Shown: positions 28,319 to 31,452 of the stretch, piece after piece
Position numbering within the stretch: position 1 is the first letter of the stretch
Layout: the number at the start of each line of letters is the position of its first letter
Program-made: the position numbers and the translations under genes
Origin: Thermoleophilia bacterium
GTDB taxonomy: Bacteria; Actinomycetota; Thermoleophilia; Miltoncostaeales; Miltoncostaeaceae
Direction: 5' to 3'
DNA: 64,000 nt
NCBI GenBank assembly: GCA_009694365.1
Contig: SHVE01000004.1
Span: 1 to 64,000, forward strand
Notes under the pieces: generated by a model
Told to the model about the DNA's origin: nothing
Database searches by the model: none
The model's input: the letters and a program-made list of their open reading frames with translations, nothing else

Positions 28319-29524
28319 ATGGTGATGGACCACAACGACAACCCGCCACCCACGCCCACGGCACGGTCGGTGCTGCGTCGAATCGGAGCCCTCGTGCTCC
28401 CCGCCGTGATCGGTGCCGGTGCCGCCCTCGGAGTGGTCGCGATGACCGTCGGCCTCGGTGACGACACCGCGACGACACTGCGTGACGATCCCGTCGTCGT
28501 GATCCCGGATGGCACTCGGAGTGACGCACCCGCCCGAGGGGCGGAGGGGTCCCCGTCCCCGACGGATGACCTGTCGGTGCCCGAAGTCGTGAAGCGCGAA
28601 TCACCGGCCGTCGTGCTCATCAGTTCGCGTACGGCCCGTGGCAGCAGTCTCGGATCGGGATTCCTGATCGACACCCACGGGCACATCCTCACCAACGCCC
28701 ATGTCGTCGACGGTGCCACCGCGACCACGGTGACCTTCTCCGATGGCACCGTGACGACCGGGCGCATTCTCGGCGTGGACCCAAGCACCGACCTCGCCGT
28801 GATCGCGATCGCCACGGTTCCGGACGGGGTGAGCCCGATCCCGCTCGGCAACAGCAGCGAACTGGTCGTGGGGCAGGACGTTGTGGCCATCGGCAACCCG
28901 TACGGGTATGAGCGCACGGCGACCACCGGGATCATCTCGGCGCTCAAGCGCGTGATCGAGTCACCCAACGGGTTCTCAATCCAGAACGCCATCCAGACCG
29001 ACGCGGCCATCAACCACGGCAACTCGGGCGGCCCGCTGCTGGATCGCGCGGGACGGGTCATCGGCATGAACTCACAGATCGCCAGCGAGAGCGGCGGCAA
29101 CGTGGGCATCGGATTTGCGGTACCAATTGACACCATCGAGCCCATCGCCGCAGCAATCATCGCCGGTGAGGGGATCGAGCATGCGTGGATCGGCATCACC
29201 GGACGTGATCTCACCCCCGCGCTCGCCGCCGCGCTCGACCTCACCGGGAGGCGCGGCGTACTGGTCGCGGACGTCGACCAGCGCGGACCTGCGGCGGATG
29301 CCGGCATCCGGGGTGCGCGCAACCCCGACGCCGACGTACCGAGGGGAGCCGATCTCATCATCGCCGTCAACGGACGGCCCGTCACGGACATGGCCGATGT
29401 CAGCATGGCGGTGGCCAGTCGCACGGTCGGTGACCGCATCACCATCACGGTGCTGCGCGACGGCGAGGAGAAGACCGTCGGTGTGACGCTGGGCAATCGT
29501 CCGGTCGACATCGGCCGGCCGTGA
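28319..29524 (+). CDS. HtrA/DegP-type membrane-anchored serine protease with PDZ domain
   Basis: 401 residues. Short cytoplasmic N-terminus, membrane anchor (VLPAVIGAGAALGVVAMTVG, about 20-40), acidic/Pro linker, trypsin-like domain with the triad His in ILTNAHVVDGA, Asp in PSTDLAVI and Ser in NHGNSGGPLLD, then one PDZ domain (HAWIGITGRDLTPAL onward). A quality-control protease acting outside the membrane. ATG 28319 has AGGAGG at 28301-28306, a slightly long spacing; an upstream TTG is less likely. Confidence 0.92.
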   Translation: MVMDHNDNPPPTPTARSVLRRIGALVLPAVIGAGAALGVVAMTVGLGDDTATTLRDDPVVVIPDGTRSDAPARGAEGSPSPTDDLSVPEVVKRESPAVVLISSRTARGSSLGSGFLIDTHGHILTNAHVVDGATATTVTFSDGTVTTGRILGVDPSTDLAVIAIATVPDGVSPIPLGNSSELVVGQDVVAIGNPYGYERTATTGIISALKRVIESPNGFSIQNAIQTDAAINHGNSGGPLLDRAGRVIGMNSQIASESGGNVGIGFAVPIDTIEPIAAAIIAGEGIEHAWIGITGRDLTPALAAALDLTGRRGVLVADVDQRGPAADAGIRGARNPDADVPRGADLIIAVNGRPVTDMADVSMAVASRTVGDRITITVLRDGEEKTVGVTLGNRPVDIGRP

Positions 29525-29537
29525 CTCCGGCGGTCCC

Positions 29538-29573
29538 GGTGGCACGCTGGTCTAACCTGACCAGCGTGCCACC
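29538..29573. promoter_or_regulatory. 15-bp perfect hairpin with a -10-like loop over the GNAT start
   Basis: GGTGGCACGCTGGTC (29538-29552), loop TAACCT, perfect complement (29559-29573). The loop is a TAnnnT hexamer 7 nt before GTG 29566, which lies in the right arm. It can act as terminator of the protease gene, as an operator, or as a hairpin that hides the start codon in read-through mRNA but not in a leaderless transcript. Confidence 0.85.
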
Positions 29574-30078
29574 ACGCGAGTGCGTCATCCGCCGCGCCGG
29601 TGCCCCGGACGCCGGGTCCATCGGTGCGATCTACGACGAGGCCATTGCCTCGGGAGTCGCCACATTCGCGGCGGGACCCCACGATGCCCGCGAGCGGCGC
29701 ATCTGGCTCGCGGCGCGCGGGGACCGGTCGCCGGTCTGGGTGCTCGACAAGGACGACACCATCTTGGGATGGTCGGCCGTCGCGCCGTTCTCACACCGCC
29801 CCTGGTACGACGGCGTGGCCGAGTACACCGTGTACATCGCGGCGGCGGCCCAGGGGTGCGGGCATGGCGGCGCGATGCTCGATCACCTCATCACAACGGC
29901 ACCGGAGTTCGGCTACTGGAAACTGGTGGGGATGATCCTCGACGGCAACACCGGTGGGATCGCACTGGCGCGAGGCCACGGATTCCGCGAGGTGGGCACT
30001 CATCAGGCACACGGACGCGTGTCCGGTACCTGGCGTGATGTCACGGTGATGGAGATACACCTCGGGAACCCCACGTGA
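29566..30078 (+). CDS. GNAT acetyltransferase, phosphinothricin-acetyltransferase-like
   Basis: 170 residues from GTG 29566, or 185 from a GTG at 29521 that overlaps the protease stop. The family pattern is seen in IRRAGAPDAGSIGAIYDEAI, GWSAVAPFSHRPWYDGVAEYTVYI, acetyl-CoA loop AAAQGCGHGGAMLDHLI and GFREVGTHQAHGRVSGTWRDV. Such enzymes N-acetylate methionine derivatives or phosphinothricin. GTG 29566 is favoured by a TAACCT box 7 nt upstream, but that box is the loop of a 15-bp hairpin. The stop overlaps the pdh scar start (GTGA). Confidence 0.85.
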   Translation: MPPRECVIRRAGAPDAGSIGAIYDEAIASGVATFAAGPHDARERRIWLAARGDRSPVWVLDKDDTILGWSAVAPFSHRPWYDGVAEYTVYIAAAAQGCGHGGAMLDHLITTAPEFGYWKLVGMILDGNTGGIALARGHGFREVGTHQAHGRVSGTWRDVTVMEIHLGNPT

Positions 30079-30781
30079 GCACGTCGCCGGTGACCCAGCC
30101 CGGACCCGACGAAATGCGCGACATCTTCCGCACCATGCAGTTGATCCGGCGCTTTGAGGAGCGGCGGCGGCGGAGTACATGGCTGGTCGCATCGGGGGAT
30201 TCCTGCATCTCGCCATCGGTGAGGAGGCGGCGATCGTGGGCACGGTGAGCGCCCTACGCGCAGACGATCCCCTCACCTCGACCTACCGCGAGCACGGGCA
30301 GGCCCTGGCACGGGGCAGCGATCCGCGGGCGGTCATGGCCGAACTACTCGGCCGGTCAACCGGGCTCTGTGGTGGACGCGGCGGGTCCATGCACCTCATG
30401 GACCGTACGCGGTCCTTTTTCGGAGGGTACGGCATCGTGGGCGGATCGGTGCCGCTGGCGCTGGGACTCGCGTGGGCCAGCCGGTACCGCGAGCAGGACC
30501 ACATCTCGGTGACCATGTTTGGTGAGGGCGCGGCCAATCAGGGAGTGGTGTCGGAATGCTTCAACATGGCCAGCCTCTGGAAGTTGCCCATCGTCTTCCT
30601 CATCCTCAACAACCAGTATGGGATGGGCACCCCCGTGGTGGTGGATGGACACGTGGTGGTGCGCGACGTCATGACTCTGTCGCTCTCGGTGGACCACCGC
30701 GTGATCTACGGAGCCGAGGCCGCCACGTTCCTCGGGTGGATCGCGGAGTTGCTGGAGCACCCAGCCGCACTGTTGGTGTGA
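30075..30781 (+). pseudogene. pdhA'-'pdhC scar: E1-alpha 5' part fused to E2 3' end, frameshifted
   Basis: From GTG 30075 the frame gives an E1-alpha start (DIFRTMQLIRRFEER), then shifts at a (CGG)4 run (about 30159-30171); one missing G explains it. From 30172 another frame continues E1-alpha (AEYMAGRIGGFLHLAIGEEA, FFGGYGIVGGSVPLALG, TMFGEGAANQG) to NNQYGMGTP. There, in frame, it becomes the end of a dihydrolipoyl acyltransferase: VVVRDVMTLSLSVDHRVIYGA...LLEHPAALLV, with the catalytic DHR motif. The rest of E1-alpha, all of E1-beta and most of E2 are missing. lipB follows directly, as often after E2 genes. Either a real deletion or an assembly join near 30630. Confidence 0.85.
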
Positions 30782-31452
30782 TGCGACCGGCCCTGCTCGC
30801 GCGGACGGAGCGCATTGGGTATGTCGCCGCCTGGGATGAACAGCGGCGTGTGGCCGACCTCGTCCGCTCCGGGGACTCCCCCGCTGTCATCTGGCTGCTC
30901 GAACACGACCCGGTGTACACCTACGGTCGACACGGAACGCGCGAGGACCTCTTCATTAGCGACGAGGTACTGACTGGCATGGGGGCCACCTGCGTGGCGA
31001 CCGACCGCGGGGGCCAGATGACTTGGCACGGCCCCGGCCAGGTGACCGGCTACGTCATCTCCGACCTGCGGGGCGGGCGTGGAGTCCGGCGCTTCGTGGC
31101 GGCCCTCGTGGATGCGATGACCGACACCTGCCGACTCTCCGGCGTTCCCGCCGCGGAGTCGGACCATGTCCGCATGGGCACGTACGCCGAGGGGCGCAAG
31201 CTCGGCAGCGTCGGCATCCGTGTGGCGGAGGGAGTGAGCATGCACGGCCTCGCCCTCAACCGGTCACCCGATCTCGAGTGGTTCCGCACCATGTCGGCAT
31301 GCGGAGCGCCCGATGTGGTGGCCACGTCCATCGCCGCCGAGGGCGGCGACCCGGACCGTGACCGGGTGGAGGCGATCTTGGTGCATGTCCTTGGCGAGCG
31401 ACTACGTCTCGTGCCCCAGCCCTCTGGCCTGATGCCCGAGGGGTGTCCGTAA
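30781..31452 (+). CDS. lipB: lipoyl(octanoyl) transferase
   Basis: 223 residues. GGQMTWHGPGQVTGYVISDL, catalytic lysine in EGRKLGSVGIRV, HGLALN and the catalytic cysteine in MSACGAPDVV match LipB. It moves octanoyl from acyl carrier protein to lipoyl domains of E2 and GcvH proteins. ATG 30781 overlaps the stop of the E2 remnant (TGATG), so it must be read from the damaged operon's promoter. Its survival suggests lipoylation is still needed elsewhere. A hairpin follows at once. Confidence 0.93.
   Translation: MRPALLARTERIGYVAAWDEQRRVADLVRSGDSPAVIWLLEHDPVYTYGRHGTREDLFISDEVLTGMGATCVATDRGGQMTWHGPGQVTGYVISDLRGGRGVRRFVAALVDAMTDTCRLSGVPAAESDHVRMGTYAEGRKLGSVGIRVAEGVSMHGLALNRSPDLEWFRTMSACGAPDVVATSIAAEGGDPDRDRVEAILVHVLGERLRLVPQPSGLMPEGCP

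Follow-up and report, generated by a model that had tools for sequence, protein, structure and literature searches.

Probable repeated loss of the pyruvate dehydrogenase operon in a genus of Miltoncostaeaceae

Under aerobic conditions, carbon usually enters the citric acid cycle through the pyruvate dehydrogenase complex (PDH). Deletions between short repeats that leave gene remnants behind are a known kind of event in bacteria, and the locus described here resembles them, as its join lies in a 7-base shared stretch and the joins of a second remnant, found in the genomes G002 and G017, lie in 10-base repeats. It differs from them in that the lost gene encodes a central enzyme and in that the loss recurs within a genus. 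Natural absence of PDH is described for the Bifidobacteriaceae, where it is a family trait found together with a phosphoketolase route and a citric acid cycle that is incomplete, according to the part of the source available to us (PMC11707648). The present case would likewise be one of Actinomycetota without PDH. In contrast to what that part of the source describes, phosphoketolase was found in none of the eight genomes in which we searched for it, which led us to reject it as the replacement for PDH, and the genome studied here (G000) carries a kgd-like frame. A non-exhaustive search of the literature by titles and openings of abstracts returned no report of PDH loss in this group.

The window is the whole stretch of DNA that was analyzed (64,000 nucleotides). 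It is part of contig C4 (134,787 bases) of G000, an assembly of 1,496,510 bases in 19 contigs with a completeness of 98.14%. The inferred placement of the organism points to a lake bacterium, probably one of the freshwater Thermoleophilia. Comparison within a set of 20 genus genomes, G000 included, makes it very likely that the window carries a recently inactivated PDH operon. At least two losses of the complex probably took place in the genus, the one in the window genome recently, and the most likely reading of the sequences is that the decay is real, recent and recurrent and that its mechanism is ordinary.

The pdhA/pdhC remnant in front of lipB

The native start of pdhA is a GTG whose position matches that in the relatives and which is overlapped by the 3′ end of the upstream gene, presumably a GNAT-type acetyltransferase as judged from its sequence (Table 1). 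The initial annotation had reported a one-base loss in a CGG run at the 5′ end of pdhA. Indeed, the region GAGGAG...TACATGG has one base fewer than in all 12 aligned relatives (counted by eye). Because of the missing base the native start is out of frame with the rest of the gene, and its frame terminates at 30246.

Table 1. Features of the remnant PDH operon and its neighbors in the window.
Feature	Positions	Strand	Basis
GNAT-type acetyltransferase gene (presumed), upstream	29521..30078	+	open frame; same neighbor in genus loci reaching that far
pdhA 5′ part, native frame, premature stop at 30246-30248	30075..30248	+	translation
CGG run, site of the pdhA frame shift	30162..30173	+	alignment to relatives
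200-codon open frame from an internal ATG, mid E1-alpha fused in frame to E2 tail	30179..30781	+	Pfam matches
Deletion join CCCGTGG	30632..30638	+	BLAST block ends and alignments; resembles both the pdhA and the pdhC sides of relatives
pdhC (E2), last 47 codons and stop	30638..30781	+	87-94% identity to pdhC tails of 12 genus relatives
lipB, lipoyl(octanoyl) transferase, apparently intact	30781..31452	+	TIGR00214, PF21948

Downstream of the frame shift, E1-alpha sequence reaches NNQYGMGTP and then passes in frame into the final 47 residues of pdhC. This chimera, including the DHR motif of its E2 end, had been read from the letters alone and was borne out by Pfam matches: residues 5-153 correspond to E1_dh (E 4e-43) and residues 151-199 to 2-oxoacid_dh (profile positions 183-231 of 232, E 1.1e-13). 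The E1_dh match stops at profile position 169 of 300, so E1-alpha is not full-length. Compared with described E1-alpha subunits of PDH (TIGR03182, PF00676), residues 2-153 match positions 27-178 of 315 in TIGR03182, but the score of 234 bits lies below the cut-off of 393.85, the rest of the subunit is missing and its native start is frame-shifted. The tail resembles the very end of the E2 catalytic domain (PF00198), whereas the lipoyl part and most of the catalytic domain are absent.

In most loci, BLAST blocks from the relatives extend to 30638 on the pdhA side and begin at 30632 on the pdhC side, which leaves the 7-base overlap CCCGTGG. Several relatives carry this heptamer on their pdhA or pdhC side; its ancestral form in this lineage may have differed. 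The stop of the chimera (TGA, 30779-30781) overlaps the ATG of lipB, whose frame is open and scores 114.9 bits with TIGR00214 (cut-off 83.55). Thus lipB still follows directly after the E2 tail, as initially noted, with its start now placed at 30781 and the join confined to the heptamer.

The E1-alpha fragment was matched at 87-92% identity in 17 of the 19 other genomes, the two others being G002 and G017 with weak matches, and a match over chimera residues 1-200 was obtained in G000 only (1/20). The order pdhA, pdhB, pdhC, lipB, which the initial annotation had suggested looking for in related genomes, was found in all 12 genus loci examined for the whole operon, each with the stop of the pdhB frame at +998 from the pdhA stop; the pdhA loci of G001, G004, G010, G013 and G015 were excluded from this set because the stretches used for them contained no lipB match. 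Between the pdhA and pdhC blocks lie 2,629-2,779 bases in these 12 relatives and 0 in the window. The rest of E1-alpha, E1-beta and the bulk of E2 are thus gone, in agreement with the first reading. As the comparison with relatives indicates, a deletion of about 2.7 kb that ends in the short stretch common to both sides very likely brought mid-pdhA and the pdhC tail together and took out the rest of pdhA, the whole of pdhB and most of pdhC. The frame of pdhA was very likely broken by a further, separate loss of one base close to its start. lipB may have been spared because other lipoyl proteins presumably still need it.

We searched G000 and the two sister genomes for other parts of the complex. 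PF00198 detected in G000 only the chimera tail and a domain in a frame of 1,491 aa that we infer to be kgd-like, and no PDH E2. PF02779 matched four places in G000, namely the kgd-like frame, a fusion on contig C3 (see below) and one frame each on C1 and C9, which we take as transketolase and DXP synthase. With the pdhB protein of G003 as query, no free pdhB was found in G000, G002 or G017, while G003 returned its own copy. PF00198 likewise detected no PDH E2 in G002 or G017, whose incompleteness (82% and 67% complete) makes absences less certain, and it was present in G003, G004 and G016. The kgd-like domain is also missing from G017, so absences in this 67% complete genome weigh little; the remnant of G002 and G017 occupies the syntenic place despite the incompleteness of the genomes. 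The initial annotation had considered another PDH or a pyruvate:ferredoxin oxidoreductase elsewhere in the genome. A second E1-beta or E2 was not found in G000, while an oxidoreductase of the KorAB type, acting on 2-oxoacids, was.

For the E1 remnant of G000, compared over 150 codons with 17 intact relatives, the mean pN is 0.076 (0.055-0.092) at a mean pS of 0.53. Per-genome means of 15 intact genomes against the others are 0.050-0.094 for pN and 0.46-0.51 for pS, taken from comparisons beyond pS 0.45 (2 to 12 per genome; two genomes had none). The remnant therefore bears no sign of long relaxation, and the loss is either recent or not real.

A second remnant in G002 and G017

In G002 and G017, which are two sister species, a frame of 42 codons lies between the GNAT gene and lipB. 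It starts from the native GTG, combines fragments of pdhA with the final residues of pdhC, and ends with TGATG on the lipB start. Alignment to intact G003 places two joins within 10-base repeats, ACATGGCGGG (read from strings) and GCTGGAGCAT. The loss is larger and more advanced than that of the window and sits at the same place. Its protein sequence appears to have escaped constraint: when G002 is compared with G017, nonsynonymous and synonymous differences number 7 and 3 in the remnant, against 18 and 56 in lipB, the GNAT gene and an HtrA-like gene together (Fisher p 0.006 for the remnant against the three neighbors, p 0.02 against lipB alone).

The two remnants carry different alleles of pdhA. 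That of G002 and G017 reads GTS-LEH, as in G003 and G009, whereas the window has GTP; G016 has GTS-LGH and G008 GTS with a different sequence after it (the allele alignment excludes G004). A FastTree tree from six neighboring proteins groups G002 with G017 (0.925) and adds successively G003 (0.999), G004 (1.000) and the pair of G009 and G016 (1.000). G000 falls outside this clade, its exact position being weakly supported (0.134). The genes beside the G002/G017 remnant have diverged unequally from G003, with pS values of 0.02-0.06 for the htrA-like gene, 0.15-0.20 for lipB and 0.35-0.37 for GNAT (loci L047 and L048 versus L037), which makes it probable that this part of the genome has undergone recombination. 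Given the allele evidence, two separate deletion events are the simplest account. As far as sequence comparison reaches, the remnant, its allele and the tree show that the ancestor of G002 and G017 lost the PDH operon in an event of its own; the complex therefore seems to be dispensable in the genus under some conditions.

Within pdhA, the two deletions have overlapping left ends, at 30632-30638 for the window and at the equivalent of about 30635-30644 for G002/G017. Judged post hoc, and with a pdhA length of about 1,050 bases, the chance of such an overlap is about 2%. Together, the overlapping ends span positions 30632-30644 of the window and about 4159-4168 of L037. Single-strand folds of four stretches at the left breakpoint were ordinary (z 0.70, -0.28, 0.52 and -0.42), and a DNA hairpin was rejected as the cause of the common breakpoint on these grounds.

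Decay, artefact or retained function

We wondered whether the organism might possess an intact operon from which the assembly dropped about 2.7 kb and one base. Such an artefact would agree with the E1 remnant of G000, which still looks constrained, and one-base mistakes in GC-rich runs are a usual type of consensus error. However, assemblers usually join on overlaps longer than 7 bases, the same gene bears a second, independent lesion, and this operon is also lost in two other genus assemblies, where the joins differ. It is because of the two lesions in one gene, the short join and the independent loss in G002 and G017, which involves other repeats and another allele of pdhA, that we favor genuine decay over the assembly join which the initial annotation had offered as the alternative; the artefact is distinctly improbable. 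A frameshift scan of the window, noisy in its output, used 153 predicted genes of relatives; 91 of them matched, with a coverage of 43,368 bases, and 15 places were flagged. The two examined in detail were both over-extended starts, three further flagged frames (two histidine-kinase-like, one of 963 aa) were judged to be the same, and the remaining ten lie at 50-69% identity. The scan missed the known pdhA shift; it is therefore insensitive near gene ends and gives no proof that other genes are error-free. The deletion might also be polymorphic, present in some members of the population only, with the assembler having picked the deleted form. This is unlikely, and it would be in line with a loss that looks recent and with a genome that may derive from a mixed population, its close relatives being metagenome-assembled.

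The initial annotation had left room for a functional 200-residue chimera from the ATG at 30179. Its frame is open and its E1-alpha residues are as conserved as in intact relatives, but we found nothing to support a function: the product would lack E1-beta and the lipoyl domain, would retain only the last 49 of 232 positions of the E2 catalytic profile, and occurs in a single genus genome of 20. Moreover, we counted the exact repeats that pdhA has in common with the final 200 bases of pdhC in seven intact operons: of the 326 that are 7 bases or longer, 266 would give in-frame joins, as would 36 of the 41 with 9 bases or more. An open chimera is therefore the usual by-product of short-repeat deletion in these GC-rich genes and is no evidence for a new gene. 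We rejected a functional chimera as the main reading and regard it as hardly credible; in a GC-rich genome, deletion by itself can leave two genes fused in frame without a new gene having arisen. Alternatively, both the window and G002/G017 may have retained the remnant as a leader whose translation couples ribosomes to lipB. All three genomes have a frame that ends with TGATG where lipB starts, the stop of intact pdhC overlaps the start of lipB in 9/12 relatives (read from strings), and the frame of 42 codons has stayed open in G002 as well as in G017 though its protein sequence is unconstrained. The frequency of in-frame joins expected by chance, however, removes most of the force of an argument from selection, and 42 open codons in two close genomes weigh little. 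In addition, the native start is frame-shifted in the window, and lipB appears to begin further downstream in 3/12 relatives (G011, G007 and G018). A retained leader is quite unlikely.

Candidate sources of acetyl-CoA

Three genomes of one genus with PDH decayed to two stages, beside intact sisters, form a natural series that lets one ask what replaces PDH in small-genome lake Actinomycetota and whether KorAB takes pyruvate there. Contig C12 of G000 encodes a KorAB pair, a 2-oxoacid oxidoreductase with a fused alpha/gamma subunit and a beta subunit, and its KorA passes the general cut-off of TIGR03710 and stays below the pyruvate-specific models. A KorA-type alpha subunit is present in 18/20 genus genomes and was not found in G007 and G009; on the basis of this distribution we rejected a replacement enzyme gained only in the genomes without PDH. 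Acetyl-CoA synthetase scored above the cut-off in six of the eight genomes tested, among them G000 and G002, with partial matches in G004 and G017. Judging from gene presence, acetyl-CoA would come via the KorAB-type oxidoreductase or from acetate via acetyl-CoA synthetase, which makes the two enzymes candidate backups for PDH. KorAB of Mycobacterium tuberculosis resembles the G000 pair in its fused alpha/gamma and beta subunits. The mycobacterial enzyme worked on 2-oxoglutarate and its activity with pyruvate was not measurable, as given in the part of the source available to us (PMC2773412). We therefore put the KorAB route forward as a hypothesis.

We also speculated on a wider scheme, in which this freshwater genus would repeatedly dismantle PDH from the same spot in pdhA because an aerobic KorAB-type oxidoreductase or the scavenging of acetate had taken over its acetyl-CoA supply, and would keep the shrinking remnant as a translated leader into lipB. 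As a whole this scheme is doubtful.

Contig C3 of G000 encodes a frame of 1,169 aa (L049:735-4244, minus strand; G000:C3:91237-94743) that unites E1-alpha, E1-beta, a lipoyl domain and 3-oxoacyl-ACP synthase III. Such a fusion might pass the decarboxylated 2-oxoacid from the lipoyl arm directly into fatty-acid synthesis. A search of the literature for a comparable E1-lipoyl-synthase fusion returned nothing relevant, and among the matches listed none from outside the genus spans both ends. Strong matches are found in 18/20 genus genomes, and a tie between the fusion and the loss of PDH was rejected for this reason.
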